Source: a virus. Taken from it: a stretch of 27,243 nucleotides of DNA. Location: the IMG/VR virus record IMGVR_UViG_3300005843_000031, positions 1 to 27,243 of that record. The stretch is one strand, 5' to 3'. This document shows, one piece after another, positions 12,819-27,243 of the stretch (positions within the stretch are counted from its first letter, which is position 1; each line of letters begins with the position of its first letter). The notes under the pieces are model-generated. The model worked only from the letters and a program-made list of their open reading frames with translations. It was not told where the DNA came from and made no database searches. The translations under genes were made by a program, and so were the position numbers.

Positions 12819-13150
12819 GCAAGAATTTAATCCTGATCGGATCGCTGCTTTTCGCAGCGTTTGGCGTCTACCATTTCATCGAGCGCATGCCGGATTCCAC
12901 GATACCGCTGATGATCTACGGCAACACGTTTCACGTCGAAAAACCCGTTTACATATTCTCTCTTCCAGCAACCTACTTTGGCTGCGTCCGCTATCGCATG
13001 CACGACGGGGAGCATTTTGATGGGTGGAATATCGAACAGCCGATGTCGCTCAGCGTGGGTGAGCATGTGAGCCCCGTCTGGATCACCAACAATCATTTCC
13101 GTGTCGACGCGTGGTGCGGAGACACAACTGTTTTTGGAGACGCCGAATGA
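12815..13150 (+). CDS. Membrane-anchored or exported protein, 111 residues
   Basis: Starts MSKNLILIGSLLFAAFGVYH, an N-terminal hydrophobic helix (residues 4-20) that is either a signal anchor or a signal peptide. The remainder is a beta-rich soluble domain (MIYGNTFHVEKPVYIFSL, GCVRYRMHDGEHFDGW) with two cysteines (GCVRY, AWCGD) that could pair in the periplasm. The start is set by the ATGA overlap with the preceding gene. Possible envelope function such as exclusion or lysis control, but nothing specific is recognised. Confidence 0.65.
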   Translation: MSKNLILIGSLLFAAFGVYHFIERMPDSTIPLMIYGNTFHVEKPVYIFSLPATYFGCVRYRMHDGEHFDGWNIEQPMSLSVGEHVSPVWITNNHFRVDAWCGDTTVFGDAE

Positions 13151-13187
13151 CCTGACGTGCCTGCACCCCTTTCACCGGAGCAATTTC

Positions 13188-13379
13188 ATGAGCACCCAGC
13201 CGCGCGAACGGTTGTCCTCTCCGCGATATCTCAAGATCCAAGGCAAATGGTACGTCTCGAAGGAGCACATGGCAGAGCAGTTGCAGTCAGCAATCCTATC
13301 CGCGTTCAGGGACGGGCAGGAGCACGCTGGGCGGCCGCGCGGTCCGTGCGCCCTTCCAGCATTGGAGATTGCGCTATGA
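13188..13379 (+). CDS. Hypothetical protein, 63 residues
   Basis: Starts at an ATG with CGGAG about 8 nt upstream, after a 37-bp gap from the preceding stop. The sequence begins MSTQPRERLSSPRYLKIQG and has a short beta-type segment (YLKIQGKWYVSKEHMAEQL) then a helix. It is soluble and basic. The stop overlaps the next start as ATGA. Function unknown. Confidence 0.55.
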   Translation: MSTQPRERLSSPRYLKIQGKWYVSKEHMAEQLQSAILSAFRDGQEHAGRPRGPCALPALEIAL

Positions 13380-13609
13380 ACATGGTCAAAGCGATGCTGT
13401 TTGGAGTCCTGCTTTACGCGGCTGGTGTCGCCACAGGGCACATGCTCTCGACCAAGCGTACAGTCGAGCGCGGCGTGATCGCGTGCTTCGAGGATGGCAC
13501 GGCTGATATGCGGAATATTACGATATCAGGGCCAGGCTTCGACAAACTACCGATGAAGGAATTGCTTGGACGGGTGCTCCGCGTGCTGTGCGAGGAGCAC
13601 AACGCATGA
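13376..13609 (+). CDS. Small membrane-anchored protein, 77 residues
   Basis: Begins MNMVKAMLFGVLLYAAGVAT, a hydrophobic helix over residues 5-22 that acts as signal anchor or signal peptide. It is followed by a polar domain of about 50 residues with cysteines at ACFED and VLCEE. Held by ATGA overlaps on both sides. It resembles the 12815-13150 protein in general plan (N-terminal helix, small Cys-containing domain) though not in sequence. Function unknown. Confidence 0.6.
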   Translation: MNMVKAMLFGVLLYAAGVATGHMLSTKRTVERGVIACFEDGTADMRNITISGPGFDKLPMKELLGRVLRVLCEEHNA

Positions 13610-13935
13610 CCGACCACACCATCGTCGAGCACCGCCCGCCGCTCAAGCGCATCGACTTCGCCCCAAAGATGCGAGCCACACCACCCGACCCATACGCGGG
13701 CTATGAGGTCGACCGCACGGCCGAGATCGCGGAGCAGGATCGCGTGTGGGCGATCATCCGGCAATGCGCAGAAGGATGTAATCCGAGAGGCAATGATGCT
13801 GACCGTTCCGCTCGCCAGCATTTTGGAGAGTTTGCCGCCGAGGGATGCAATCAGTTGGAGGCCACAGCAGCGCCCAGCGTTTATCGGGATGACACCAGCC
13901 TATGGCAGGCGATGATCGATGAGGCGGGGCGATGA
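13606..13935 (+). CDS. Hypothetical protein, 109 residues
   Basis: Soluble protein beginning MTDHTIVEHRPPLKRIDFAP. The middle (EIAEQDRVWAIIRQCAEGC) is helical. The C-terminal half is polar with a second Cys-containing repeat-like element (AEGCNPRG at about 61-68 and AEGCNQLE at about 84-91), so a short motif is used twice. The start comes from the ATGA overlap; a longer in-frame start lies inside the previous gene. No known family. Confidence 0.6.
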   Translation: MTDHTIVEHRPPLKRIDFAPKMRATPPDPYAGYEVDRTAEIAEQDRVWAIIRQCAEGCNPRGNDADRSARQHFGEFAAEGCNQLEATAAPSVYRDDTSLWQAMIDEAGR

Positions 13936-14438
13936 CTGCGCCGATCCGCTCCATGGCCGACCTGGTCGAGGCGCTGCGGTCAACACAGGTCGAGCGCGAG
14001 CTCAGCTATGAGATGCTGGACGCCATCAGCGGGCTCCAGCAGGGCTATGTGGCCAAACTGCTTGGCCCGTCGCAGTCCAAGCGGCTCGGGCCCGTGTCGA
14101 CGTTTCCGCTGCTCGGTGCGCTCGGTAAGGCGCTCGCCCTCGTCGACGACCCCGAGCAGATCGCAATGGTCAAGGGACGGTGGAAACAGCGCAAGATCGT
14201 CGGGGGTTCAGCGCGCCAGATCAGGCTGAGAAATGGCCGATCTGAGCAGGCAAGCATCGACTCAAATCTGCAAAAACTGGCTGTAATACTGACCAAAATG
14301 ACGCGCGAGGAGCGTATTCTGATGGGGGCAAGCATCGGAGGGAAGCAGCGCGCCAAGAAGCTCGGAAAGCGCCAGCGCCAGCGTATCGCATCTCATGCCG
14401 CGCGCGCAAGGTGGTCCAAGCAGGCCAGTACGTTGTAG
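13932..14438 (+). CDS. Helix-turn-helix (XRE-like) regulatory protein
   Basis: A 168-residue protein. Residues about 10-70 form an XRE-like domain (LVEALRSTQVERELSYEML, then AISGLQQGYVAKLLG), where the GLQQGYVAKLL segment fits a recognition helix. The C-terminal 60 residues are very basic (KRQRQRIASHAARARW), suited to nucleic-acid binding, and include an ASIGGKQRAKKLGK segment. As one of the last genes of the rightward early operon it is a candidate activator or antiterminator for the late genes. That role is inferred from position. Confidence 0.7.
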   Translation: MTAPIRSMADLVEALRSTQVERELSYEMLDAISGLQQGYVAKLLGPSQSKRLGPVSTFPLLGALGKALALVDDPEQIAMVKGRWKQRKIVGGSARQIRLRNGRSEQASIDSNLQKLAVILTKMTREERILMGASIGGKQRAKKLGKRQRQRIASHAARARWSKQASTL

Positions 14439-14466
14439 CCAATCCACAGCCTGCCATGCTGTTCCC

Positions 14467-14994
14467 ATGAACATTCGCAGGCCACCACCAGAGCTGATCC
14501 GCGCGCGCCAGTGGGAGATCAAGCGACGCTATGAGCACCACACCAAGGTCTCCAAGCGATCGAGATCAATGGCTGCAATCCGCATCGCAGACCTATTGCG
14601 GTGGCTTGCCGATGTGTCAGGTGGTGGGGCCGAGCTTGAGCCGAGCCAGTGGTCAGAAGGCATCGCCAGGATCTTCGTGCATCATTTCGTGGTGCTCGCC
14701 GACGGAAATCGCAGGGCAGCCGAATGGCTGGCGACCTACTGTCCGTGGATCGAGACGCGCGACCGCGAATACATGATCACCGAGGCCAACCATTGCCCGC
14801 TCAAATGGTCTGCCGATAAGCTCGCATGGAAGCTCGCCCTCACCGATGCCAGGCGAACCCACCTCAAGATCACCACCATCGGCGCCATCGATGTTAGCAA
14901 GGAACAACGGGCCAAGCGCCGCAAGGCCAAGCAGGCTGAGTTGCAGCGAGCCCTCCGAGCCAAGCGCAAAGCCGACCGCGTCAACACCATATAG
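14467..14994 (+). CDS. Conserved alphaproteobacterial phage protein, basic C-terminus
   Basis: A 175-residue protein beginning MNIRRPPPELIRARQWEIKR. No ribosome binding site is visible before the ATG at 14467; an in-frame ATG 24 codons upstream overlaps the preceding gene and also lacks one. The central part (IARIFVHHFVVLADGNRRA to ETRDREYMITEANHCPLKW) and a segment reading KITTIGAIDVSKEQRAKRR are recalled from uncharacterised rhizobial proteins. The last 35 residues are a strongly basic helix. It may bind DNA or RNA; function is otherwise unknown. It is the last rightward early gene. Confidence 0.7.
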   Translation: MNIRRPPPELIRARQWEIKRRYEHHTKVSKRSRSMAAIRIADLLRWLADVSGGGAELEPSQWSEGIARIFVHHFVVLADGNRRAAEWLATYCPWIETRDREYMITEANHCPLKWSADKLAWKLALTDARRTHLKITTIGAIDVSKEQRAKRRKAKQAELQRALRAKRKADRVNTI

Positions 14995-15021
14995 GTGATA
15001 TATATGCTGTTGACGCATCGC

Positions 15022-15165
15022 TCATCGTGTCCCGAGCCGGTCCACCGTCCAGCACACCGCAAAGATGCCCGTGAACATCAGCACCATCTGAACGTACTCG
15101 CTCAGCGCTGCCACCCACAGCAGTGCCAGGAATAGGCCGATCACCGCAACCGCTCGAACCACCAT
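15022..15165 (-). CDS. Small two-helix membrane protein on the opposite strand, 47 residues
   Basis: A 47-residue minus-strand frame starting MVVRAVAVIGLFLALLWVAA with GAGG 5 nt before the ATG; a GTG two codons upstream is also possible. Two hydrophobic helices (about 4-21 and 26-42; VQMVLMFTGIFAVCW) end in a short basic tail (DRLGTR). The size and topology resemble small holin-like or toxin-like peptides, but nothing proves either. It converges with the end of the rightward early operon. No clear promoter is seen. Confidence 0.45.
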   Translation of the reverse strand: MVVRAVAVIGLFLALLWVAALSEYVQMVLMFTGIFAVCWTVDRLGTR

Positions 15166-15276
15166 CCGCACCTCAGCCTGCCTGATCAGCCCATGATCGT
15201 AGCATTGACCTCGTTGCCCGCGTGTGTGACGTAACCCCCATATTACGCTGCGTCTAAAACCTCAGTGATTTCAAGA

Positions 15277-15356
15277 ACATCACACATAGATATTCCATAA
15301 TAGAGGTTATGCGAAATGTGGAACACAACAATATCAATGACTTAGCTGTGTGATGT
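15277..15356. repeat. Long-range inverted repeat with AT-rich loop
   Basis: ACATCACACA (15277-15286) and its exact reverse complement TGTGTGATGT (15347-15356) flank 60 bases that are clearly richer in A and T than the surroundings. It could be a pair of protein-binding sites or a cruciform-forming element. Confidence 0.5.
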
Positions 15357-15423
15357 GCGTGGGCTATGCGGTCAGGGCATGCGGTCGATAGGTAGATAGC
15401 CAGGTTTGCCCTTCGAAAAGACC

Positions 15424-15444
15424 GGGGTGGGGTGGGGGTGGGGG
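15424..15444 (+). other. G-quadruplex-forming motif
   Basis: Four G-runs of 4, 4, 5 and 5 separated by single T residues on the plus strand. Single-nucleotide loops give the most stable type of quadruplex. It lies 147 bases upstream of the small terminase start codon, on the non-template strand for late transcription. Confidence 0.7.
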
Positions 15445-15550
15445 CAGATCATCCCACGCTCGCCATTTATGAGCTATCCCCTTCATTTCGCGGCCAGTTC
15501 TGTGGGGCCTGTTGTATTTATGCCACGACTGTTTTTCTGTCGAATGTGCG

Positions 15551-15560
15551 GTGCGTTGTT
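15551..15560 (+). promoter_or_regulatory. Late-operon 10-mer motif, copy 1
   Basis: GTGCGTTGTT, identical to copies at 17680, 21987 and 24199. It is 30 bases upstream of the small terminase ATG and is followed at 15565-15575 by the palindrome GTAAC-C-GTTAC. It is a candidate late promoter or RNA signal. Confidence 0.55.
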
Positions 15561-15590
15561 TTGAGTAACCGTTACGAGGACTGTCCGAGT

Positions 15591-16157
15591 ATGGATTTCT
15601 CGGAAATTGAGCTTGGGCCGAAGATGCAGGCCTGTTCGGAGCGGGAGCGGAAGTTCGTCTGGTTTTACGTGACGAACGAGGGTCCGCCGAATGGGGCGCA
15701 AGCTGCGCGGGACGCTGGGTATGGGGATAGTTCGGAGGCCGCGAAGGTGCGGGCGAGCGAGCTCATGCACCGCGACCGGGTGCTGGCGGCGCTGGAGGAG
15801 GTCGGCAAGAAGGCGTTCCGCGGGCTGCTCGGGCCGGCGGTGAAGGCGGCGGCCCAGCTGATCCAGAACGAGCGGCACGTCGACCACAGCAAGGCGGTGT
15901 TCACGACGCTGGCGCGGCTGGGGCTTGGGGAGAAGTCGACCGTTGACGTCAATCTCGGCGGGGAGGTGACCGTCAACCACACGGACCAGGCGCTGAACGA
16001 TCTGCGGGTGCTGATCGGGCTTGGCGTGGCTGAGGAGAAGCTGATCGAGGTGTTCGGCTTCACGGGCCTGTCGCGGTACCGGAAGATGCTGGCCGAGCAG
16101 GAGGCGCGGGCACCGAGGGTGATCGAGCACCGTTCCGACGAGGTTGCTGGTGGCTGA
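15591..16157 (+). CDS. terS: Terminase small subunit
   Basis: A 188-residue DNA-recognition subunit of the packaging motor, which would bind the phage pac or cos site and recruit the large subunit. Residues about 15-75 carry the terminase small-subunit helix-turn-helix (FVWFYVTNEGPPNGAQAA, ARDAGYGDSSEAAKVRASEL), the usual pattern of this family. Residues about 80-150 give the oligomerisation helices and a short beta segment (VDVNLGGEVTVNH). I use the ATG at 15591 with GAGGA about 11 nt upstream. The frame is open for 53 more codons, but these do not look coding. The end overlaps the large-subunit start. Confidence 0.9.
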   Translation: MDFSEIELGPKMQACSERERKFVWFYVTNEGPPNGAQAARDAGYGDSSEAAKVRASELMHRDRVLAALEEVGKKAFRGLLGPAVKAAAQLIQNERHVDHSKAVFTTLARLGLGEKSTVDVNLGGEVTVNHTDQALNDLRVLIGLGVAEEKLIEVFGFTGLSRYRKMLAEQEARAPRVIEHRSDEVAGG

Positions 16158-17679
16158 CGACCCCGAGGAAGGCCCGGACCCGAACGACGTCCGCCGGCAC
16201 GCCAAGAAGATGCTGACCGAGATGCAGTACCGGCAGAAATACCGGCGCATTGATTTTTACATGCCGAACTTCAAGCAGGAGGAATTCCACAACCTGACCG
16301 CCGACCGGGCGATTGGCGAGAAGATGCTGCGCGCCGGCAACCAGCAGGGCAAGACGCACGCGACGTCGGCCGAGGATGCGATGCATGCGATCGCGCTTTA
16401 CCCGGACTGGTACCGTGGGCGCAAGTTCCTGAAGCCGCCAGCGATCGAGCGGGCCTATGAGTTTGTCGGCTGGTACGGCTGCACCACGTCGGGCATGACG
16501 CGCGACGGCGTGCAGACCAAGCTGCTGGGGGACTTGCGGACGGCGGGCGGGCTCGGGACCGGGATGATCCCGCTCGACAACATCGTTGGCCGTCCGACCA
16601 TGGCGCGAGGCATTTCCGATTTCGTCGACACGATCAACATCACCCGGGAGACCGGGGGCAAGGCCATCTTCCGCGGCAAGACGTTCGAGATGGGCCGCGA
16701 GGCATGGCAGGTCGAGGCGGTCGACCTGATCCACGGTGACGAGGACCCCGGCGATTTCGAAATCTACGAGGAATGCCAGGCGCGGCTGACGACCACGAAC
16801 GGGATGATCATCTGGTCGATGACGCCGGTGATGGGCGCCACGCCGGTCCGCAAGCATTTCAAGAACAAGACCCCGGGGACCGCCGAGGTCCTGATGACGA
16901 TCTGGGATGCCGCGGTGTCGAAGCGCGGGCACATTCCCGACGAGGATATTCCCAGGCTGATTGCGCGCGCCGGCCGCAAGGCGGCAACCCGCATTTTCGG
17001 CGGCGATGCACAGGGGCAGGGTGCGGTGTTCGAGACCGAGTCCGACCAGATCAAGCACAAGCTGGACCCGGCATCGGTGCCGGCATACTGGCCATGGCTA
17101 TGGGCCCTGGACTTTCGTCACTCCGGGCAGGAGTCGGGCGGCCACCCTTTCGCGGCCGTGCTGCTGACGTGGGATCGCGACAACGACGTAGTCTACGTGA
17201 TGGATGCGGTGCGGATGTTCGGCATGGCCGCGAACCACGTTGCCAGGATCAAGGAAAGCCCGATGCGGCTCGCGCCGGTGGCATGGCCGCACGACGGCGG
17301 GACCGGGGGCGGGGTGCAGACCAACGACACGGTGGCGACGATCTACAAGAAACTGGGCCTGAGCATGCGGCCGACGCACGCCACGTTTTCGGACGGCGGA
17401 TACAATTTCGAAGCCGGCATCACCGTCATGGAGGAGCGCCTTGCCGGGAAAAAGCTGCTTGTGGCTGAGCACCTGTTCGACTGGTTCGACGAATACAGCG
17501 GCTACCACCGCAAGGACGGCAAGGTCGTCAAGGTCGACGACGACCTTCTGAGCGCGACGCGGGTGGGCCTGATGGACCTCAGGTTCGCAAGGACCTTTGA
17601 CAAGTTCCCGGCGATGGTGCGCGCCGACCTCGCTGCCGCCCCTGTTGCCGCCGGGATGGACTTCGACGTCTTCGGCTGA
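16150..17679 (+). CDS. terL: Terminase large subunit
   Basis: A 509-residue packaging ATPase and nuclease. The ATPase Walker A is GNQQGKT at about residue 63, and the Walker B is the hydrophobic-acidic segment VDLIHGDEDP at about 192-201. The C-terminal RuvC-like nuclease starts with WALDFRHSG (about 317) and continues with HPFAAVLLTWD and WPHDGGTGGG. The first codon is most likely GTG at 16150, 7 nt after GAGG and overlapping the small-subunit stop; TTG at 16144 would touch its ribosome site. The late motif begins on the base right after the stop codon. Confidence 0.95.
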   Translation: MADDPEEGPDPNDVRRHAKKMLTEMQYRQKYRRIDFYMPNFKQEEFHNLTADRAIGEKMLRAGNQQGKTHATSAEDAMHAIALYPDWYRGRKFLKPPAIERAYEFVGWYGCTTSGMTRDGVQTKLLGDLRTAGGLGTGMIPLDNIVGRPTMARGISDFVDTINITRETGGKAIFRGKTFEMGREAWQVEAVDLIHGDEDPGDFEIYEECQARLTTTNGMIIWSMTPVMGATPVRKHFKNKTPGTAEVLMTIWDAAVSKRGHIPDEDIPRLIARAGRKAATRIFGGDAQGQGAVFETESDQIKHKLDPASVPAYWPWLWALDFRHSGQESGGHPFAAVLLTWDRDNDVVYVMDAVRMFGMAANHVARIKESPMRLAPVAWPHDGGTGGGVQTNDTVATIYKKLGLSMRPTHATFSDGGYNFEAGITVMEERLAGKKLLVAEHLFDWFDEYSGYHRKDGKVVKVDDDLLSATRVGLMDLRFARTFDKFPAMVRADLAAAPVAAGMDFDVFG

Positions 17680-17689
17680 GTGCGTTGTT
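17680..17689 (+). promoter_or_regulatory. Late-operon 10-mer motif, copy 2
   Basis: GTGCGTTGTT immediately after the terL stop codon. Here it overlaps a hairpin, TGCGTT-GTTGGG-AACGCA (17681-17698). The remaining gap to 17755 also holds a GCTCCAG/CTGGAGC inverted repeat ahead of the next ribosome site. Confidence 0.55.
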
Positions 17690-17755
17690 GGGAACGCATG
17701 GCTCGCCGCATCTTCCGCTCCAGCATCACACCCCATTTGACTGGAGCCTTCCCCC

Positions 17756-18133
17756 ATGGCCGATCTCACCGAAACCGAACTGGCGCAGCAGGCCGAGCAG
17801 GAGCGCCTTGATCGCGAGCGGGCCGAGGCCGTCGTCGATGATCCCGAGCCCGAAAGCACCGGCGTCGCGCGCCTGCGTGCGTTCGAGGACGAGCATTTCG
17901 GCAAGGATGCGGTGCGCATCAATGGCCGCGTCGAGCGTGGGTCCGGCTCGCGCTATCAGGCGCTGCCCGAGCCCAAGCGCCGGCATTACCAGGCCCTCGA
18001 AAAGCTGGTCGAGGCGGACGAGAAGCTTGTCGCCGCCCACACCGCGCTGATGACCGCCGACGCCGCGCATGAGGCGGCGATGGAAGCCGTCGCGCTTGCG
18101 GAGAAGGAAGCCGATGCCGTTGCCGAACAATAG
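17756..18133 (+). CDS. Late hypothetical protein, coiled-coil type
   Basis: A 125-residue acidic protein with GGAG about 10 nt upstream of the ATG. The first 30 residues are a charged helix (ETELAQQAEQERLDRERAE), the last 55 an Ala/Glu-rich helix (KLVEADEKLVAAHTALM, AHEAAMEAVALAEKEAD) typical of coiled coils. Its position between terminase and portal suggests a minor virion or assembly protein. Unrecognised otherwise. Confidence 0.7.
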   Translation: MADLTETELAQQAEQERLDRERAEAVVDDPEPESTGVARLRAFEDEHFGKDAVRINGRVERGSGSRYQALPEPKRRHYQALEKLVEADEKLVAAHTALMTADAAHEAAMEAVALAEKEADAVAEQ

Positions 18134-18320
18134 CGCTGGCTTTCCCAGCGCCGCGGATTCGCTTGGCCTCGGAGGCGACCTGTCGCAGCAGGTCAAGACC
18201 GAGACCGACGAGGAGCGCAAGAAGCGGATGGCGCAGATCCAGCAGCAGCGCGCCTTGGGACCTTCGGGCTCCATGGCCGTGGCGTCCATTTTCGGACCGG
18301 CGGGAGACCTTGGTGCTTGA
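18114..18320 (+). CDS. Late hypothetical protein, 68 residues
   Basis: Begins MPLPNNSAGFPSAADSLGLG; the ATG at 18114 has GAAGGA just upstream and overlaps the preceding gene by 20 bases. The pattern GGDLSQQVKTETDEERKKR followed by GPSGSMAVASIFG, with a helical centre and flexible Gly/Ala ends, is recalled from small proteins before the portal in podovirus-like prophages. Possibly a minor virion component; function unknown. Confidence 0.7.
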   Translation: MPLPNNSAGFPSAADSLGLGGDLSQQVKTETDEERKKRMAQIQQQRALGPSGSMAVASIFGPAGDLGA

Positions 18321-18774
18321 AAGCCGGTTCGAGCAGATGCTGTCCTTCGACCTGCGCAAGAGCTGGCAGGCCCGCGCGCTCGCCGAGGCAAAGGGGCAGA
18401 CCGGCATGGTGCTGCTGTCGATGATCGACCACACCTACGGTACCGACACGCTGCGCGTTCTGCTGCCGCTGATATTCCCCGGCTACGTCGAGCCTTCGCT
18501 GCCGTGCCTGGCGAGCTGTGGAAAGGTGGCAAAGTCCGGCGCGGTGGTCGCCGACGTGATCATGAAGGACCACGCGTTCATCAAGGATCAGGTCGTCTAC
18601 CCCAGCGAACTTGCATTGCGCGACGATTTCCGCCGGCTGGCCGATCACATGAAGCTGGCCGACGCCGAGCGTGTCGAGCTTTTCAAATGCGTGCAGCGCT
18701 GGCTGGTCGCCGACCACCGGCTCGATCCGTCGTTCGACCCGCAGGACCCCGATGCCAAGCGCCTCGTCCACTAG
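18313..18774 (+). CDS. Late hypothetical protein, 153 residues
   Basis: Start taken at GTG (18313), 6 nt after GGGAG and overlapping the previous stop; a TTG one codon earlier is possible. The sequence begins VLESRFEQMLSFDLRKSW and is mostly helical, with a hydrophobic stretch (LRVLLPLIFPGYVE, about 44-57) not long enough to be a clear membrane segment, then an HMKLADAERVELFKCVQRW helix near the end. It overlaps the portal start by 23 bases. No family assigned. Confidence 0.65.
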   Translation: MLESRFEQMLSFDLRKSWQARALAEAKGQTGMVLLSMIDHTYGTDTLRVLLPLIFPGYVEPSLPCLASCGKVAKSGAVVADVIMKDHAFIKDQVVYPSELALRDDFRRLADHMKLADAERVELFKCVQRWLVADHRLDPSFDPQDPDAKRLVH

Positions 18775-20497
18775 CGTCGTTGCGATCCAGACCGGCGCGG
18801 CCCTCAACGGGCAGGGCCGCCGCGTCAGCGACCGCGAGATGGAGAAGGTCAACAAGTCCAAGCGGACCTTCAGCCAATATCAGACCCGCCGCTCCCTGTT
18901 CGCAGGCCAGTGGGAGGAGGTCGCCCAGCTCATCCTGCCGACCTCGCGCAACACGTTTTTCTATCAGAACTACAACACGCCCGGCCAGAAGAAGACGCAG
19001 CAGCAGGTCGACGCCACCGGCGCGCTGGCGCTGCACCGTTTCTGCGCGATCGCGGATTCGCTGGTGACGCCGCGCAACATGCTGTGGCACGGCCTGCAAG
19101 GCGATGACTACGTGATGAAGGACCGCGCCACCCGGCTGTGGTTCGAGAACACGACCAAGATGCTGTTCCGCCAACGCTACGACGCGAATGCCAATTTTGC
19201 GGCGCAGAACTACAACAACTGGCAGTCGCTCGGCGCGTTCGGCAACGCCACCATGTATGTCGACAAGTTCGACAATCGCTGGCACGGCGGCGGCCGGGGC
19301 CTGCGCTACAAATCGGTGCCGCTCGGCGAGACCTATTTCGGGGAGAACCATCAGGGCAAGGTCGACCGGATGATCCGGTGGTTCAAGCTGACCGCCTATC
19401 AGGCCGTGCAGAAGTTCGGCGAGGAATGGCTGCCCGGCACCGTGGCTGCCGCCGCAGGCAAGGACGAGACCACGCTGTTCAACTTCCTGCACTGCGTCCA
19501 CCCGCGCGACGATGACTACGATGCCGAGGCGCTGGACGAGCGCTCGCTGCCGTTCGCGTCCTACTACATCTGCATCGAGGGCAATTGCCTGATGGCGCCG
19601 GAGAGTGGCTACCGCGTGTTCCCCTACGCGGTGTCGCGCTACGACCAGACCCCGGGCGAGGTCGAGGGCCGCGGTCCCGCGCAGATCGTGCTGCCGTCGC
19701 TGAAGACCCTCAACGCGCAAAAGATCACCTTCCTCAAACAGGGACATCGGGCCGCCGATCCCGTGCTGCTGATGGCCGACGACGGCATTGTCGGCATGGA
19801 TCTGCGGCCCGGTGCCCAGAACAAGGGCGGCGTCACCTCCGACGGCAAGCTGCTGGTGCACACGCTCCCCACTGGCGACATCGGCATTTCCGAGAAGATG
19901 ATGGGCGAGGAGCGCGGCATCATCGACGACGTGTTCCTGGTGTCGCTGTTCAAGGTGCTGTCCGAGCACCCGAACATGACGGCCACCCAGGTCATCGAGC
20001 TCGTCAACGAAAAGGGCATGCTGGTCGCGCCCACGCTCGGCCGGCAGCACACCGAATATGTCGGGGGCCTCGTCGAGCGCGAACTCGACCTGCTGGTCGA
20101 CATGCGCATGGTCGACCCGATGCCGCCGCGGCTGCGCGAGGCCAAGGGCGCCTACGAGGTCACCGACACCTCGCCGCTGTCGCTGGCCGCCAGCGCTGGT
20201 CGCGCCGCCGGCTTCCTGCGCTCGCTCGAACAGGTCCGCGAACTCGTCAACATCACGCAGGACATGAGCCTGCTCGATCCCTTCGACTTCGACACCGCGA
20301 TTCCGGAGATCTCGCGTATCAACAACGTGCCCGAGGCATGGATGGCCGACCCGCAGGCGGTCGCCGCCAAGCGCAAGAACCGTGCCGCGCAGCAGCAGCG
20401 GCAGGAGCAGATCCAGGCCGCGCCCGCTGAAGCCGCCATCATCAAGGCGCGTGCGGTTGCCGCCAAGGCCGGCCCGGCCCAGGGCCTGCCCGCATGA
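18752..20497 (+). CDS. Head-to-tail connector (portal) protein, T7 gp8-like
   Basis: A 581-residue portal forming the dodecameric ring through which DNA enters and leaves the capsid. It belongs to the podovirus head-tail connector family, recognisable from RTFSQYQTRRSLFAGQWEEVAQL near the N-terminus (read here in two parts: RTFSQYQTRRSLF, GQWEEVAQLILP), DSLVTPRNMLWHGL, a central PYAVSRYDQTPGEVEGRGPA and a C-terminal MTATQVIELVNEKGML segment. The end (about 540-581) is an Ala/Gln-rich tail. Start chosen at the ATG at 18752 with AGGA upstream; the longer frame overlaps the preceding gene. Confidence 0.92.
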   Translation: MPSASSTSVVAIQTGAALNGQGRRVSDREMEKVNKSKRTFSQYQTRRSLFAGQWEEVAQLILPTSRNTFFYQNYNTPGQKKTQQQVDATGALALHRFCAIADSLVTPRNMLWHGLQGDDYVMKDRATRLWFENTTKMLFRQRYDANANFAAQNYNNWQSLGAFGNATMYVDKFDNRWHGGGRGLRYKSVPLGETYFGENHQGKVDRMIRWFKLTAYQAVQKFGEEWLPGTVAAAAGKDETTLFNFLHCVHPRDDDYDAEALDERSLPFASYYICIEGNCLMAPESGYRVFPYAVSRYDQTPGEVEGRGPAQIVLPSLKTLNAQKITFLKQGHRAADPVLLMADDGIVGMDLRPGAQNKGGVTSDGKLLVHTLPTGDIGISEKMMGEERGIIDDVFLVSLFKVLSEHPNMTATQVIELVNEKGMLVAPTLGRQHTEYVGGLVERELDLLVDMRMVDPMPPRLREAKGAYEVTDTSPLSLAASAGRAAGFLRSLEQVRELVNITQDMSLLDPFDFDTAIPEISRINNVPEAWMADPQAVAAKRKNRAAQQQRQEQIQAAPAEAAIIKARAVAAKAGPAQGLPA

Positions 20498-20796
20498 CCG
20501 AATCCGACCTGAAAATCCAGGAGGCCCTGACCGATCGCCAGCGCGCCTACATGCTCGCCTTCAAGGAGGCCGCCGGCGCCGCTGTGCTGGCCGACCTCGC
20601 GACCTTTTGCCGGGCCACCGAGACCTGCGTGGTCCCCGGCAATCGAGACCTCACCTACGTCCTTGAAGGGCGGCGGGAGGTTTACCTACGCATTCGAGCC
20701 CACCTCGATCTCCACATCGAGGAGCTTGTCCAGCGCTTTACCCGGCCCGCCAAAGGAGCGATAAGCCATGACGACCGAAACGACCCTCCCGAGTAG
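20494..20796 (+). CDS. Bbp19-like small virion-associated protein
   Basis: A 100-residue protein starting in an ATGA overlap with the portal. The core (VLADLATFCRATETCV, then LEGRREVYLRIRAHLDL) matches the Bbp19-like domain of podovirus-type phages such as Bordetella BPP-1 relatives: a helix with LA.FCR, then GRR.VYLRI. Its precise role is unknown; it always sits between portal and scaffold or capsid genes as far as I recall. The 3' end overlaps the scaffold start by 29 bases. Confidence 0.8.
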   Translation: MTESDLKIQEALTDRQRAYMLAFKEAAGAAVLADLATFCRATETCVVPGNRDLTYVLEGRREVYLRIRAHLDLHIEELVQRFTRPAKGAISHDDRNDPPE

Positions 20797-21673
20797 CCAC
20801 CTCCATTTCTTCAATCACCACACCGGCCGGCCTCGATTTCATTTCGATGAAGCGAGCGATGCGGCTGCGGCATCTGCCGCCGCTGCTGCGGCTGCCGCCG
20901 GCGCAAAGCCGTGGCACGACGGCGTCGACCCCGCCGTCAAAGGCTTCTGGGAAACCAAGGGCCTGAAGCTCGACAATCCCCGCGATTTCGGCGTCAAGCT
21001 GACCGAGATGTACCAGGGTGCCGAGCGCTTGATCGGCGTGCCTCCGGACCGCGTCGTCAAGCTGCCGGCCGCCGACGCCAAGCCGGAGGACCTGCGCGCC
21101 TATTACGAGCGCCTCGGCGCGCCGAAAGAGGCCAAGGACTACGACCTCTCGCCGATCAAGGACCCCGCGATCTCGGACAGTCTGCGCGCCACGCTGCACG
21201 ACCAAGGTGTGCCAAAGAGCGCGGCCAATATCATTGCGACCAATCTCGCCAAGACGCTCGAATCCAAGACCACCACCGACAACTCGGCGCTGACCACCAA
21301 GCTCGCCGAGCAGAAGGAAGCCCTGACCAAGAACTGGGGCGACAAGTTCGCGTACAACCACCTCCAGGCGATCGAGGGCGCGCGCCGGCTCGGCATCGAC
21401 AAGGAGGCGGTCGCGGCGCTCGAAGGCACCATCGGCTACGACAAGGTGATGGAGGCGATGCGCAAGATCGGCGCCAACACCCGCGAGGACACGTTCGTCG
21501 AGCGCGGCGCGGGCGGGCCGGTCGGTGACGTCACCACCATGGAAGGCGCCCATGCGCGCAAGTCCGAACTGATGGCCGACAAGGGATGGGTCGAGCGCTA
21601 CAACGCCGGCGGTGCCGCGGAGAAGCGCGAGATGACACGGCTTAACCAGATGATCACGGGGGCCACGTCATGA
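20768..21673 (+). CDS. Capsid assembly scaffold protein
   Basis: A 301-residue protein; GGAG lies 11 nt before the ATG. Residues about 30-50 are an Ala-run (low complexity), followed by a mainly helical acidic body (DLRAYYERLGAPKEAKDYD, AANIIATNLAKTLE, KEALTKNWGDKF). A short C-terminal MTRLNQMITG helix could contact the capsid. The APKEAKDYDLS motif and position immediately before the capsid are typical of scaffolds in podoviruses. It would be lost from the mature virion. Confidence 0.8.
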   Translation: MTTETTLPSSHLHFFNHHTGRPRFHFDEASDAAAASAAAAAAAAGAKPWHDGVDPAVKGFWETKGLKLDNPRDFGVKLTEMYQGAERLIGVPPDRVVKLPAADAKPEDLRAYYERLGAPKEAKDYDLSPIKDPAISDSLRATLHDQGVPKSAANIIATNLAKTLESKTTTDNSALTTKLAEQKEALTKNWGDKFAYNHLQAIEGARRLGIDKEAVAALEGTIGYDKVMEAMRKIGANTREDTFVERGAGGPVGDVTTMEGAHARKSELMADKGWVERYNAGGAAEKREMTRLNQMITGATS

Positions 21674-21978
21674 GCGAGCCCGATGAAGTGATCTTCGACG
21701 CGCCGGTCACAAAGCCCGTCAAGGCCAAGAAGAAGACCACAAAGAAGGTGGCCAGGCCGAAGGCCGCGGTCTCGCAATTCTCCGGGCTGACCAAGACCGC
21801 ATGCGCCGACGGCTGCAATGCCAGGGGCTGCGTCATCAGCGGCAAGCCGTACTGCGCGCACCCGACCAAGGGCGCGTTGCAGACCGGCGACATGAACAAC
21901 GCGGCCGCGCTGAAGCGGCTGCGCGACGCGCGCGAATTCCTCAACATCAAGATCGATCCGAACCGCTTCAAGGACTGA
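21670..21978 (+). CDS. Late hypothetical protein with four cysteines
   Basis: A 102-residue protein joined to the scaffold gene by ATGA. Residues 15-35 are Lys-rich (KPVKAKKKTTKKVARPK), then a compact Cys cluster (TACADGCNARGCVISG, PYCAHPT; about 45-66) that could bind zinc, then a polar helix (ALKRLRDAREFLN). It might bind DNA or the capsid. No family is recognised. The late motif and a 190-bp leader follow. Confidence 0.65.
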   Translation: MSEPDEVIFDAPVTKPVKAKKKTTKKVARPKAAVSQFSGLTKTACADGCNARGCVISGKPYCAHPTKGALQTGDMNNAAALKRLRDAREFLNIKIDPNRFKD

Positions 21979-21986
21979 TCCGGTTG

Positions 21987-21996
21987 GTGCGTTGTT
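21987..21996 (+). promoter_or_regulatory. Late-operon 10-mer motif, copy 3
   Basis: GTGCGTTGTT, 9 bases after the preceding stop codon. It opens a 182-base leader before the major capsid start, which contains a strong hairpin (22006-22029) and three 40-bp tandem units. Confidence 0.55.
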
Positions 21997-22005
21997 CCGG
22001 TTTGG

Positions 22006-22029
22006 CGGGCGCGGCTAGGTTCGCGCCCG
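22006..22029 (+). other. Stem-loop in the capsid leader
   Basis: CGGGCGCG / CGCGCCCG, an 8-bp perfect stem with an 8-base loop. No U-run follows, so it is not a normal intrinsic terminator; it could be an RNA processing or stability element in the capsid mRNA. Confidence 0.5.
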
Positions 22030-22047
22030 TTGAACCTGAGCACCGGT

Positions 22048-22145
22048 CCCCGCAAGGGCAAGGCCGACAGGTTTGAAAGTGACGGCCCCCGCAAGGACAA
22101 GGCTGAAAGTTTGATGGCCCCTGTGCATTCGCACGGACAAGGCCG
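22048..22145 (+). repeat. Tandem 40-bp repeats in the capsid leader
   Basis: The core GCAAGGGCAAGGC (22052), GCAAGGACAAGGC (22091) and GCACGGACAAGGC (22131) recurs at 39- and 40-base spacing. The first two units also share the preceding CCCC and a following TTTGA segment; the third keeps only the core. It is untranslated (frame changes between units) and lies before the major capsid gene. Confidence 0.65.
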
Positions 22146-22177
22146 CCGACCATTCAACCTCTCAAGGCGGGATAGCC

Positions 22178-23101
22178 ATGTCCGAAAATCTACCGCAACT
22201 GTTTACGACCGAATTCTCCACCATGCTGGCGCTCAAGCTCCAGCAGAAGCAGTCGAAGCTGCGTGGCCGTGTGATGGAAGGCTATCACGTCGGCAAGCAG
22301 GCTTCGCCCATCCAGTATTTCGGCGCCGTCCAGATGAAGCCGCCGCAGGGCCGCTTCGCCCCGATCGGCCGGCAGGATGGCAGCATGACCCGGCGCTGGG
22401 TTTTCCCGGTCGACCGTGACTGCAACCAGCTCATCGACACCTTCGACAAGCTCAAGACCGCGATCGATCCGCAGTCGCAGGAAGTCGCCGCTGCCGCTGC
22501 CGCCGTCGCCCGTGAATGGGACGACCGGCTGATTGCCGCCGCATTCGGCACCTCGCAGCTCGGCACCGACGGCGCAAGCTTCTCGGCCGAGACCTGGGCC
22601 TCGATCTCGTCCGCGTGGACGGTGTCCTCGACCTTCGGCTCATCGGCTGCCTCCGGCCTCACCGTCGCCAAGATGATCGAAGCCAAGCGCATCATGCGCA
22701 AGGCACAGGTCGACATGGAGGAGGAGACCCTGACCTGGGTCACGAACTCCCAGGGCGAAAGCGATCTGCTCAACCAGGTGCAGGTGGTCTCCACCGAGTT
22801 CTCCGAGCGCCCGGTCCTCCAGGAGGGCAAGGTCACGCGTTTCCTCGGCTGGGACATCGTCTACAGCGAGCGCCTGCCGTCGGCCTCGTCGGTTCGCTCG
22901 AACATCCCCTTCGCCAAGTCCGGCCTCTACCTCGGCATCTGGAAGGACACCGAGAACGATGTCGACCGCCGCAAGGACCTGAGCGGCCTGCCCTGGCAGA
23001 TCTACACCATGATGTCGTCCGGCGCGACCCGACTGGAGCCCGGCCGTCTCCTCGAATGCGACTGCGCCGACACCTCGGCCGCAGCCGACGTCACGCCGTA
23101 A
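22178..23101 (+). CDS. Major capsid protein
   Basis: A 307-residue capsid protein, with AAGGCGGG before the ATG. The start (MSENLPQLFTTEF, then TMLALKLQQKQSKLRGRV) is an N-terminal arm; the middle (AVAREWDDRLIAAAFG, about 108-123, and VAKMIEAKRIMRKAQV) is the helical spine and the C-terminal part (KSGLYLGIWKDTENDVDRR, then GLPWQIYTMMSSGATRL) completes a HK97-like fold as in related podovirus capsids. The position right after the scaffold fits. Identification rests on recalled family pattern and order. Confidence 0.88.
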   Translation: MSENLPQLFTTEFSTMLALKLQQKQSKLRGRVMEGYHVGKQASPIQYFGAVQMKPPQGRFAPIGRQDGSMTRRWVFPVDRDCNQLIDTFDKLKTAIDPQSQEVAAAAAAVAREWDDRLIAAAFGTSQLGTDGASFSAETWASISSAWTVSSTFGSSAASGLTVAKMIEAKRIMRKAQVDMEEETLTWVTNSQGESDLLNQVQVVSTEFSERPVLQEGKVTRFLGWDIVYSERLPSASSVRSNIPFAKSGLYLGIWKDTENDVDRRKDLSGLPWQIYTMMSSGATRLEPGRLLECDCADTSAAADVTP

Positions 23102-23113
23102 GGAGCAACCCAC

Positions 23114-23647
23114 ATGGCTGTCGATCACGTCAAATCCACGATCATCACCGCCCTCGATGCTACGCCGGTTGTTCAGCCGACGGCCGGCGAGGGCGCCCCG
23201 GCGCCGCTCAAGTCGGTAACCGGCATCGCCACGGGCATTGCATCTTCCTCGATCGACGCGACCTATCAGATGGTTCGCGTGCCCTCGAACTCGAAGATCA
23301 AGAACCTGAGTTTCCAGACCCAGACCCAGGCGGCCGGCGTCACCGACATCGGCCTCTACTATGCGACCGATGGCGAAGGTAACCGACCGACGTCGCTGCT
23401 GGTTGCTGCCGCGATCAGCCGAACGTTCTTTGCCTCTGCGATCGCCCTTACCACCACCACGCGTCAGGACGTGCTCGGCAACCCGATCGCATCGCCCTAC
23501 ACCCCGGACAAGCGCAACATGCCGCTCTGGCAGGCTGCTGGCCTTGCTTCCGATCCCGGCGGCTACTTCGACATTGTCCTGTCGCTGACCACCGCCATCA
23601 CCACCGGCACTGGGATCATGGTGCTGGAATGCACCTACACGGATTGA
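23114..23647 (+). CDS. Probable capsid decoration or minor virion protein
   Basis: A 177-residue protein with AGGAG before the ATG, 12 bases after the capsid stop. It is rich in Thr, Ser and Ala with alternating hydrophobic residues typical of beta sheets (IGLYYATDGEGN, GIMVLECTYTD) and short loops. The location directly after the capsid gene fits a head decoration or stabilising protein. No conserved enzyme motif is visible. Confidence 0.65.
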   Translation: MAVDHVKSTIITALDATPVVQPTAGEGAPAPLKSVTGIATGIASSSIDATYQMVRVPSNSKIKNLSFQTQTQAAGVTDIGLYYATDGEGNRPTSLLVAAAISRTFFASAIALTTTTRQDVLGNPIASPYTPDKRNMPLWQAAGLASDPGGYFDIVLSLTTAITTGTGIMVLECTYTD

Positions 23648-23655
23648 GGTGAGCC

Positions 23656-23898
23656 ATGGCCGCTGAAGCAATCGGACTGTTGAAGGCCTCGGTCACCAAT
23701 CTTAGTTCACCCGGATCAATCAGTGTTCCGGGCTTGAAGGTCGGAGACAAGGTCATCGGTACATGGCTGATGTCCAACGGAAGTTGGGTTGCTCCCGACG
23801 TGGAGTTTGAAGCCGTCATCTCCGTCAATGACGAGATTCAACAGGTTGGAAATATTTCCGTCCCAAGCCAGTCTTGGGACATCCTTTTGGTGAGGTGA
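23656..23898 (+). CDS. Late hypothetical protein, beta-rich, 80 residues
   Basis: An 80-residue protein preceded by TGAGGTGAG. Two alternating beta patterns (ASVTNLSSPGSISVPGLKVG, EFEAVISVNDEIQQVG) and a C-terminal SQSWDILLVR suggest a small beta domain as in decoration or spike-type proteins. Third-codon GC is lower than in its neighbours, possibly a recent addition. Unrecognised otherwise. Confidence 0.65.
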   Translation: MAAEAIGLLKASVTNLSSPGSISVPGLKVGDKVIGTWLMSNGSWVAPDVEFEAVISVNDEIQQVGNISVPSQSWDILLVR

Positions 23899-23901
23899 AC
23901 C

Positions 23902-24132
23902 ATGGCTGACCACTTCGTGAGCATTCCTCGTGGCGTCGAAGGCATGAAGTATTCGGACTTCACGACCGGAACCTCTACGAGCGGCGCCACCATCGAACTG
24001 CGCCTGTTCGACGCGACCACGCCGGCGACGACCTACTCCAAGGTTGATGTCCTGAAGGCGCTGAAGGCGTTCGAACGATTCTTCGAGAATGCGCAGCAGG
24101 CCAGCGCAGCCGGGTTCATCGTCTCCGGATAG
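23902..24132 (+). CDS. Late hypothetical protein, 76 residues
   Basis: A 76-residue protein with GAGGTG upstream and only 3 bases between the previous stop and its ATG. It begins MADHFVSIPRGVEGMKYSDF, has a beta pattern (SGATIELRLFDA) and ends in a helix (VLKALKAFERFFENAQQ). It is followed by an intrinsic terminator, so it closes the head transcription block. Function unknown. Confidence 0.65.
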   Translation: MADHFVSIPRGVEGMKYSDFTTGTSTSGATIELRLFDATTPATTYSKVDVLKALKAFERFFENAQQASAAGFIVSG

Positions 24133-24162
24133 TCGCCGAGCGTACCTCCGAGGGAGTAAACT

Positions 24163-24192
24163 GGCGGCGGGATTTCGGTCCCGCCGCCTTTT
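24163..24192 (+). terminator. Intrinsic terminator between head and tail genes
   Basis: GGCGGCGGGA (24163-24172), loop TTTCGG, TCCCGCCGCC (24179-24188): a perfect 10-bp GC-rich stem followed by TTTT (24189-24192). It is the only textbook rho-independent terminator seen in the window. Tail genes downstream need either read-through or a new promoter. Confidence 0.85.
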
Positions 24193-24198
24193 GTCGTG

Positions 24199-24208
24199 GT
24201 GCGTTGTT
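24199..24208 (+). promoter_or_regulatory. Late-operon 10-mer motif, copy 4
   Basis: GTGCGTTGTT starting 6 bases after the terminator T-run and 31 bases before the tail gene ATG. This placement right behind a terminator makes a transcription-start role the simplest explanation. Confidence 0.6.
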
Positions 24209-24239
24209 GGGCTGGAACCCCGTCCGCATTGTCCGCGCC

Positions 24240-25385
24240 ATGGTCGCCTTCACCTCCGCAGTCGATATCGGCAATCGCGCGCTGCAACATTGCGGTGCCG
24301 ATCGCATTTCGAGCTTCACCGAGAATTCGAAACGCGCCTCCGAGGTGGCCTTCGTCTATGACAAGGTCCGCGTTGCCGAGCTTCAGCGAAACATCTGGAC
24401 CTTCGCGACCCGCCGCGCCTCGATGCGCGCGGTCGACACCACGACGATGATGCTGAGCCCCGCTATGTGGGCGCCCGCGACGACCTATTATCGCGGCTCG
24501 ATCGTGATGGACGCGCTCGGAAATTTCTGGATCTCGAACATCGTCAACAACACCGGAAACGACCCGCTTCTCACCAATTACTGGGAGCCGTATTTCGGGC
24601 CGCTGACCGTGTCGCTGTACAGTTCGACCGGCACCTACGGCTCGGGCGAGGTCGTCTACACCTTCGCCGGTGACGGCACCTATCGGGTTTACCTGTCGCT
24701 CCAGGACGCCAATTCGGACAACCCTGCGACCGCGACGCCGTGGGACGCGACGGTCACATACTGGCAGGACCAGATAGTGACCTATTCCGCGGTCGCCTAC
24801 AAAAGCCTGGTCGACCTCAATCTCGCGCAGCAGCCGGACACGCATCCGTCGCAGTGGACCTCGACATTCGTCGGCGGCACCGGATCGCTCAAATGGCTCG
24901 AGATCGGCGGCGCCGAGTTTCCCAGCGGCGTTGCACTCGTGCGCCCGAACATCGTTTATCCGCTCGGCGCGGGTCCGTCGTCGCAGTCCTACAGCCAGAA
25001 CATCTACAAGCTGCCGGCCGGCTTCCTGCGCTTTGCGCCGCAGAACCCCAAGGTCGCGGTGCCGATGCTCGGCGGACCCACTGGCAACAGCTACACCGAC
25101 TGGCAGGTCGAGAACGGCTATATCGTCTCGTCCGACGTCGGGCCGGTCCGCCTGCGCTTCGTCGCGGATGTGACCGACGTCTCCAAGATGGATGCGATGT
25201 TCTGCGAGGGTCTCGCTGCGCGGATCGGCATCGAGGTTTGTCAGCCCATCACCCAGTCGGACGGCCGCCTCCAGACGATCGCCTCCAAATACAAGCGCTT
25301 CATGGACGAGGCGCGCACGATCAACGCGATCGAGGCCGGCTATGACGATCCGCCGGATGACGTCTACGTGTCCGTGAGGCAATAA
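24240..25385 (+). CDS. Tail tubular protein A (T7 gp11-like) with inserted carbohydrate-binding-like modules
   Basis: A 381-residue tail protein that would form the ring between portal and nozzle. Residues 1-65 (VDIGNRALQHCGADRISSF, YDKVRVAELQRNIWTFA) and about 235-381 are the gp11 family core, split by about 145 residues containing three tandem segments with aromatic-Gly-Val-Tyr-Trp spacing (about 77-120, 128-168, 168-209), similar to CBM5/12-type modules. No ribosome site is visible before the ATG at 24240. An in-frame TTG lies within the late motif. The core family call is strong, the modules are inference. Confidence 0.85.
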   Translation: MVAFTSAVDIGNRALQHCGADRISSFTENSKRASEVAFVYDKVRVAELQRNIWTFATRRASMRAVDTTTMMLSPAMWAPATTYYRGSIVMDALGNFWISNIVNNTGNDPLLTNYWEPYFGPLTVSLYSSTGTYGSGEVVYTFAGDGTYRVYLSLQDANSDNPATATPWDATVTYWQDQIVTYSAVAYKSLVDLNLAQQPDTHPSQWTSTFVGGTGSLKWLEIGGAEFPSGVALVRPNIVYPLGAGPSSQSYSQNIYKLPAGFLRFAPQNPKVAVPMLGGPTGNSYTDWQVENGYIVSSDVGPVRLRFVADVTDVSKMDAMFCEGLAARIGIEVCQPITQSDGRLQTIASKYKRFMDEARTINAIEAGYDDPPDDVYVSVRQ

Positions 25386-27243
25386 TGCCGGCGGCCACGC
25401 AGATCCTCACCTCGTTCCTCGGCGGCGAGATCAGCCAATACGCGCAGGGTCGCTACGACCGGCCGGACTACCGCACGTCGATGCGCGTCTGCTTCAACAG
25501 CATGCCGCTGGAGAGTGGCGCGTGGACGCGGCGGCCGGGGACGCAGTACAGCGGCCACACCCGTGGGGGCACGCCGGGCCGTGTCATCAAGTTCGATTTT
25601 CAGCAGTCCGCTCCGATCACGATGGAGTTCACGGACAACTATGTTCGCTTCCGCAACGGCGCCGTGCTGATCACCACGAACGATGACCAGACCATTGTCT
25701 CGATCTCAACGGCAAACCCGGCCGTTGTCCAGACGCTGGGGGCGGTGGCGTGGGCGACGGGCGACACGGCGATCTTCCCTGTTGCGTCGATTCCGCAGCT
25801 TGAAAATCGGCAAGTCGTATTGACGAAGATCGACACGACGCATTTTTCCATTGCGGATGCGCTGACCGGACTTTCGATCGACGGATCGACATTCGGGGCA
25901 CTCGCCACCGGCGCCTATATCGCGCGCGTGCTTGAGGTGCAGACCGGCTACGCGGGGTCGACCTGGGAAAATCTCCGCGTCATCCAAGCCGAAACGACAG
26001 GAATTTTTCTGGCGCCGGCGTCGGCTCCCCAGGTGCTGACCGCCACGATCTATCCCTATGTGAACTTCAAGCCGTCGTTTGCGCTGAGCCCAGCGGTGTT
26101 TCTCGACGGTCCCTATCTCGATCCGTTCACCAATGGAGCGCAGGCCACGCCCAGCGCGGCCAAGGGGATCATCACGCTCACGGTGTCGTTCTCTGCATAC
26201 GACGCGAGCAAGGCCTATAAGCTCGGCGACTTCGTCACATCGGCCGGCGTCAATTACAAATCACTGATCGACCAGAACGTCGGCAACACGCCAGTGTCGA
26301 GCCCGACGGCATGGCAGGCCACATCGGCCGGCGCGGCCATCAACAACGGGCAGGGCTTCCTCGGCACGGATGTCGGGCGACTGGTTCGCCTGCTATCGGA
26401 ACCGGCGCCATGGGTAGCTGCAACCGCGTACACGACGGGAAATGTCGTCTCCTATAACCCGAGTGGAGATCCCGGCGCGACCACCTACTGGCAGGCAATT
26501 GCGGCGACCACCGGACACGCGCCCGGCAGCGATATCATACACTGGTCGCTGCTGACGCAAAATGCGGCGATCTGGACCTGGGGCAAGATTACGTCGCTGA
26601 CGAACATCATCAGTCCGACGCTGGTCGGCTCGGTCAACATCGGCGACATGACGCTCGGTGGTGGCATCAATAGTGTATTCGATAGCGTCTTTACGAAGGC
26701 GTCATCGGCTAGCGCTGGCAAGCAGGACTTTCAGAGCGGCGGATTTTTCCCGCCGTCTACAAGGATCGGCCTGAGTTCGTACGTCGGCAAGAATTATTCC
26801 GGGGCGAGTGCGCAGGCTATCCAGCAGGCGACCGTTTACCCCACGTCGAACTTCGGCTTTGGCGCCGGCGTGTGCACGACCGGCGGCGTTCAGGGGCCGA
26901 TGTCAAGCCCGACGTTTACCTTCAATTTGCGCGGCAAGTCGACTGCGCCGACATCGGCATCAGACGGCACGCTGCTTGGAACATCGGGGGCTGTCTTTAA
27001 TCCGACGTCTCCTGTCACGGTCATCTCGTCCGATACAGCAACGACATGGAACTACGTTTGGATCGAGCAGATCGGTTCCTACCCGATCGGCGGCGTTCTG
27101 AACGCTTCTGCCTATCAAATCATTTCTCTCATTTCCCAAGTCTCGTTCTTCACGCCGACGGGGACGGGTACGTCGAGCGGGGCGTTCGTCGAAATACTTG
27201 GGCCCGCATTGCTCTATCCCAGCGTTTCGATCGCGACGTGGCG
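25385..27243 (+). CDS. Tail tubular protein B-like (T7 gp12-like) nozzle protein, 3' truncated by window
   Basis: The ATG at 25385 uses the last A of the preceding TAA stop, and the frame stays open to the right edge (619 codons). It begins MPAATQILTSFLGGEISQYA, followed by QGRYDRPDYRTSMRVCFN and WTRRPGTQYSG: the pattern of the tail nozzle family (GGE near the start, GR.D...Y, C.N, RRPGT). Two internal segments (about 272-310 and 343-387; AYKLGDFVTSAGVNYKSL, AYTTGNVVSYN, with Trp at the ends) again resemble CBM5/12-type modules. It would form the tail nozzle on the cell surface. The C-terminus is outside the window. Confidence 0.85.
   Translation, partial: MPAATQILTSFLGGEISQYAQGRYDRPDYRTSMRVCFNSMPLESGAWTRRPGTQYSGHTRGGTPGRVIKFDFQQSAPITMEFTDNYVRFRNGAVLITTNDDQTIVSISTANPAVVQTLGAVAWATGDTAIFPVASIPQLENRQVVLTKIDTTHFSIADALTGLSIDGSTFGALATGAYIARVLEVQTGYAGSTWENLRVIQAETTGIFLAPASAPQVLTATIYPYVNFKPSFALSPAVFLDGPYLDPFTNGAQATPSAAKGIITLTVSFSAYDASKAYKLGDFVTSAGVNYKSLIDQNVGNTPVSSPTAWQATSAGAAINNGQGFLGTDVGRLVRLLSEPAPWVAATAYTTGNVVSYNPSGDPGATTYWQAIAATTGHAPGSDIIHWSLLTQNAAIWTWGKITSLTNIISPTLVGSVNIGDMTLGGGINSVFDSVFTKASSASAGKQDFQSGGFFPPSTRIGLSSYVGKNYSGASAQAIQQATVYPTSNFGFGAGVCTTGGVQGPMSSPTFTFNLRGKSTAPTSASDGTLLGTSGAVFNPTSPVTVISSDTATTWNYVWIEQIGSYPIGGVLNASAYQIISLISQVSFFTPTGTGTSSGAFVEILGPALLYPSVSIATW

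Follow-up and report, generated by a model that had tools for sequence, protein, structure and literature searches.

The 10-nt word GTGCGTTGTT, which recurs along the late genes of an uncultured virus, is strongly supported by sequence comparison as the upstream half of a promoter shared by the late-gene blocks, and standing before each of them, in a large group of uncultured soil phages. The window, that is, the whole stretch of 27,243 nt that was analysed, is a 100% identical part of a 44,804-base IMG/VR record (G001). It contains exactly four perfect copies of the word, all on the plus strand, at 15551, 17680, 21987 and 24199, as the original prediction had it. The start of the terminase small subunit gene (15591) is 40 nt downstream of copy 1, copy 2 is immediately 3' of the terL stop codon (17677-17679), the capsid ATG (22178) is 191 nt downstream of copy 3, and the tail-gene ATG (24240) is 41 nt downstream of copy 4; the intrinsic terminator predicted to precede copy 4 is present as well (stem 24163-24188). 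These copies are, nevertheless, neither the complete set nor the whole element. A fifth, variant copy in the window, GTACGTTG at 14428-14435, fits the element pattern, and three more exact copies lie beyond the window, in the tail/lysis region, so that the 44.8-kb genome carries seven exact copies, all on the plus (late) strand and each ahead of late genes. The 10-mer itself is one part of a longer, two-box element. The same site before each late block (seven exact copies in G001) matches the arrangement of activator-dependent late promoter sets such as those of Mu C and P2 Ogr.

At no more than one mismatch, the word has six matches in the window, compared with a mean of 1.55 in 100 shuffled sequences, none of which reached six. 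No 10-mer is repeated more than four times in the window, and the raw count of GTGCGTTGTT alone is weak evidence because this GC-rich sequence has five further 10-mers with four occurrences each. Whether the word is real is decided by its position in the gaps and by its conservation, rather than by the count. The promoters, genes and other features along the window are the following; all promoters and start points are predicted.

13932-14438, plus strand: gene A, candidate late activator (168 aa), with an XRE-type HTH N-terminal domain and a basic C-terminal tail; last gene before promoter 1
14428-14460, plus strand: promoter 1 (variant), GTACGTTG at 14428-14435, -10 box CATGCT at 14455-14460; start at 14467, the ATG of gene B
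14467-14994, plus strand: gene B, 175 aa from the ATG at 14467, function unassigned, found in 5 of 15 near-complete genomes
15551-15584, plus strand: promoter 2, GTGCGTTGTT at 15551-15560, -10 box GACTGT at 15579-15584; start at 15591, the terS ATG
15591-16157, plus strand: terminase small subunit, terS (phrog_51, E 3e-9)
16150-17679, plus strand: terminase large subunit, terL (Terminase_6C, E 2.1e-6; phrog_5653, E 1.2e-10)
17680-17714, plus strand: promoter 3, GTGCGTTGTT at 17680-17689, -10 box CATCTT at 17709-17714; start at about 17721, then a 35-nt leader with GGAG and the ATG of the post-terL gene at 17756
21987-22021, plus strand: promoter 4 (capsid), GTGCGTTGTT at 21987-21996, -10 box TAGGTT at 22016-22021; start at about 22028, leader of 150 nt
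22006-22029, no strand assigned: inverted repeat with the -10 box of the capsid promoter in its loop, covarying in relatives
22178-23101, plus strand: major capsid protein, 307 aa (phrog_3437, E 5e-49)
24163-24192, plus strand: intrinsic terminator (stem 24163-24188) at the end of the capsid block, just before promoter 5
24199-24232, plus strand: promoter 5, GTGCGTTGTT at 24199-24208, -10 box CATTGT at 24227-24232; start at 24239-24240, at the tail-gene ATG (24240)
24240-25385, plus strand: tail (tubular-like) protein (phrog_394, E 5e-37)

When 145 distinct sites were aligned by GTGCGTTG, a second box, CAnnTTCC, was seen 28 nt downstream, and the element reads GTGCG-TTG followed by an nAnnnT box 17±1 bp after the TTG hexamer. 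In the pattern searched for, nAnnnT, the A and the T are spaced like A(-11) and T(-7) in a -10 hexamer. The pattern is present at offset 28 in 74 of the 145 sites and at offsets 27-29, that is, at the sigma70-type distance of 16-18 bp after the TTGnnn hexamer, in 115 of the 145 (chance expectation, about 10%), compared with about 4 of 145 per offset elsewhere. All seven exact copies in G001 have the second box (about 1e-7 at base composition); the variant copy at 14428 has it too, but because the pattern that picked it included the -10 box, the test is confined to the seven exact copies. Across the aligned sites, the TTG, A(-11) and T(-7) are conserved, the remaining -35 and -10 positions are poor, and -12 is mostly C. 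A scan with the sigma70 consensus (TTGACA/TATAAT type) recovered none of the motif sites. The initial impression that the word is not sigma70-like does not extend to the whole element, with TTG at -35, a 17±1 bp spacing and nAnnnT at -10. By its spacing, this is -35/-10 promoter geometry, and the repeated element is very probably a promoter.

Relatives of the phage (80 in total) were fetched by capsid protein. In these capsid-bearing relatives, GTGCGTTG occurs 167 times in the forward and 12 times in the reverse orientation, in the same gaps as in the window, and in 57 of 79 loci it is found no more than 400 nt ahead of the capsid ATG. Conservation in the late gaps of relatives had been set beforehand as the refutation test, and the motif passed it, both in the capsid gaps and in the strand bias. 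Some minus-strand copies adjoin a small HTH gene (family C), near 23078-23122 in oriented G003 (L106) and near 7217 in G018; in G003, the motif is about 41 nt before the ATG of this gene. No repeated copy of the motif was found in the gaps of HTVC010P and MW202898, two distant capsid relatives, and no shared repeated substitute word was found in the motif-less group (L038, L044 and others), where the capsid promoter looks ordinary (TTGCAA-17-TAAGGT). An ordinary-looking sigma70 promoter is located upstream of the capsid gene in L033, L038 and L044, and in L033 and L044 it is overlapped by the inverted repeat AGTGGGTC...GACCCACT, possibly a repressor or activator site.

The word is rewritten consistently in individual phages. 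In G018, GTGTGTTG (GTGTG, five copies) occupies the terS, post-terL, capsid and tail gaps; G013 and G017 have GTACGTTG (GTACG, six and three copies, respectively) at the corresponding gaps; and in G010, ATACGTTG (ATACG, three copies) replaces the GTGCG form there. Conversely, GTGCGTTG occupies the A-B intergenic position of promoter 1 in G004, G006, G007 and G011. With the five bases before the TTG left open in the search, most motif-bearing genomes gave GTGCG as the top-ranking word, and G018, G013, G017 and G010 gave their private variants. Variants are shared within genomes by 226 pairs of sites, compared with a mean of 154 and more than in all 5000 permutations, which ignore genome relatedness. 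The TTG is constant across genomes and the preceding five bases vary, which fits a scheme in which sigma recognises the TTG and the other bases are recognised by a phage protein that itself changes; likewise, one private variant per genome would follow from co-evolution of a phage-encoded factor and its sites. This consistent rewriting points to a phage-made protein as the probable switch for the late genes, and the genomes without GTGCG are the best evidence for such a factor, with the proviso that sites in related genomes are not independent, that the rewritten-site genomes number four and that the informative motif-less genomes number two.

Gene A is the only non-structural gene of G001 that was detected, using iterated profiles, in all 15 near-complete motif-bearing genomes; the next most widespread one is present in 11 of the 15. 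It was found in none of three motif-less genomes that share the head genes (G012, G019 and G023), even at E 10. All three are fragments; G019 and G023 carry terS/terL and are informative, and G012, which ends upstream of the head genes, is a weaker case. Gene A directly precedes the first promoter. Its N-terminal domain was modelled by AlphaFold with a pLDDT of about 90, and the top Foldseek matches of the N-terminal 70 residues in the PDB are XRE folds (HipB and C-protein structures; TMt up to about 0.8, probability 1.0, best E only 0.011), so that, in the model, these residues have an XRE/lambda-repressor-like fold. No Pfam or NCBIfam match of note was obtained for gene A among the curated family models, the one PHROG match of the window protein covers the C-terminal tail only, and a tblastn search of annotated phages and plasmids produced no match. 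The protein is very divergent (20-46% identity). In G005, gene A looks truncated, yet six sites are present. The GTGCG word has no obvious dyad; a site without a dyad is unusual for XRE dimers. The predicted recognition helices of G035 and G018 are near-identical, KGQLQKAL (GTGCG sites) and KNQLQKCL (GTGTG sites), with Asn in place of Gly at the beginning of the helix alongside the change from GTGCG to GTGTG. The correlation between recognition helix and site variant is suggestive in three genomes, too few for a test. On balance, we favor the gene A protein as the activator of the late promoters. The products of genes B and C were considered as the factor and rejected: these genes are present in only 5 and 3 genomes, respectively, and some of their copies are themselves behind the motif.

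Taken as a whole, we consider it probable that these are late promoters served by host RNA polymerase and its housekeeping sigma factor, with the gene A protein as the activator. At each copy, GTGCG (about -40 to -36) would be joined to a TTG -35 core, followed, 17±1 bp downstream, by a weak -10 box (cAnnTT), and GTGCG would most likely be where an activator encoded by the phage makes contact and offsets the poor -35 and -10 boxes. The best candidate for this activator is the XRE-type protein encoded at 13932-14438. Made early, protein A would switch on gene B, the terS/terL block and the blocks for head, capsid and tail, as well as the tail-fibre and lysis blocks that lie beyond the window. 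The phage-specific rewriting of the sites argues against host sigma acting alone. An unlikely alternative is that the same promoter is read by polymerase with a sigma factor, either alternative or altered by the phage, that recognises GTGCGTTG plus CAnnTTCC, in which case gene A would have another role or encode a sigma-remodelling partner. The strong conservation of the first box, the non-consensus -10 with C preferred at -12 and the trailing CC are all compatible with this explanation, whereas the 15 genomes yielded no match to sigma-70 region 2 and only sub-threshold matches to region 4, in six of them.

The position of the start codons bears on where transcription would begin. ATGs are most frequent at positions +39 to +42 relative to the motif, some 12-13 nt past the start of the -10 box. 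Transcription would be expected to begin here, about 7 nt beyond the box, so the start codon gives independent, if indirect, support to the predicted start point. A 5-nt Shine-Dalgarno sequence precedes none of the 75 ATGs at +38 to +43, whereas two internal late genes have one in 33 of their 40 homologues. Because the predicted start falls on the ATG and this sequence is missing, several late mRNAs are predicted to be leaderless, a conclusion that we regard as quite likely; the genes concerned are terS, gene B and the tail and tail-fibre genes, whose ATGs would coincide with the start point. The post-terL and capsid transcripts, by comparison, are predicted to have leaders. The capsid gene has a 5-nt Shine-Dalgarno sequence in 0 of 23 cases, yet a long leader precedes its ATG.

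It is improbable that the word is instead an RNA element in read-through transcripts, either a processing site or a put/nut-like antitermination signal by which the terminator before copy 4 would be bypassed. The copies do lie just past stop codons or a terminator, and a co-varying hairpin follows the capsid copy: the inverted repeat at 22006-22029 shows compensatory changes in 7 of 9 pairs, with both sides changing in relatives, and its covariation score is 0.273, compared with 0.126 for shuffled and at most 0.166 for slid alignments. The hairpins, however, are enriched at capsid sites only, with no enrichment at the 99 other sites, and we rejected them as a general part of the promoter element. 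Furthermore, an RNA word would need neither an nAnnnT box at DNA spacing nor an ATG at +40, and a search of 12000-27243 against Rfam found nothing near the gathering score. With a predicted start at +40, the capsid inverted repeat cannot form in the RNA of that promoter, and it would then act in read-through RNA or in DNA. Among the functions originally proposed for the word, a late promoter read with a phage factor gained strong support, and an RNA processing site and an antitermination signal did not. The capsid leader (22028-22177) folds modestly better than shuffled sequences (z -1.9). It contains tandem hairpin-like units of the GGCCCCCGCAAGGACAAGGCC type, the last one with a longer stem, which are present in most capsid relatives (L005-L084), including those without the promoter motif, and may represent a new structured phage leader RNA.

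A promoter for a phage-encoded single-subunit RNA polymerase is very unlikely. The T7-like order of the head and tail genes and a short conserved word with a start close to the ATG would suit such an enzyme; the 17±1 bp spacing of the two boxes, however, is typical of a sigma-dependent holoenzyme, and no RNA_pol match or candidate was found in the 15 near-complete genomes, although control genomes were also without a match and this is no proof of absence. A chance repeat or homologous carry-over of conserved flanks, for which the other fourfold 10-mers might be cited, has almost nothing left in its favor: it is refuted by the conservation test, the strand bias of the copies, their location in gaps and the rewriting of sites that are not homologous speak against it, and the sequences flanking the four copies in the window are mutually unrelated, hence no duplicated segment was carried over.

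The capsid protein (22178-23101) is 35% identical to those of HTVC010P-type pelagiphages, hinting at a terrestrial branch of this group. No prophage turned up when the capsid protein and its alignment were searched against 84,980 genomes of bacteria and archaea; no cultured member of the phage group and no transcript were found, and in a literature search for the motif word, only unrelated papers were among the matches listed. To our knowledge, late control in this soil phage group capsid-related to HTVC010P-type pelagiphages has not been described. With this analysis, a widespread group of uncultured soil phages has a consensus for its late promoters and a single named candidate for their activator. 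Natural variants of the site come paired with variants of this candidate, so that the specificity of protein-DNA recognition can be tested directly. For the control of translation in phages, a first packaging gene that starts without a leader is an unusual and clear-cut prediction. In its most general form, which we hold slightly more probable than its opposite, the proposal is that an undescribed, fast-evolving family of XRE-fold activators reads an asymmetric site fused to the -35 box of about 5-9 late promoters per phage, many of them giving leaderless mRNAs, and that the activator changes together with its sites from phage to phage.

Several known systems resemble this scheme in role. In P2 and P4, one small phage protein, Ogr or delta, switches on several late operons of a temperate phage, as the candidate would here; Ogr, however, is a zinc-binding protein that acts at a dyad near -55, whereas the candidate is an HTH protein and the site abuts the -35 box. 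The C protein of phage Mu likewise serves four late promoters (lys, I, P and mom) with non-consensus -10 and -35 boxes, from a site just upstream of or overlapping -35 (PMC4461284), an arrangement close to the one proposed for our candidate activator. Mu C binds as a dimer, unlike the asymmetric GTGCG fused to TTG, and the XRE-fold candidate is likened to it by role alone. GafY/GafZ and GafA, which activate gene transfer agents in Caulobacter and Rhodobacter, respectively, represent an alphaproteobacterial, phage-derived type of activator: it contacts RpoD and makes up for a degenerate -35 element (PMC11150451). Compensation for a poor -35 is also what we propose here, although the GafY site is some 120 bp upstream and GafY depends on IHF, whereas the present site is at -40. 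The predicted leaderless mRNAs have a counterpart in Sinorhizobium meliloti, where leaderless transcripts start exactly on the AUG and RpoD promoters have a conserved TTG and a poorly conserved -10 (PMC3616915). There, scattered host genes are leaderless, whereas here the arrangement recurs at the late promoters of one phage group.
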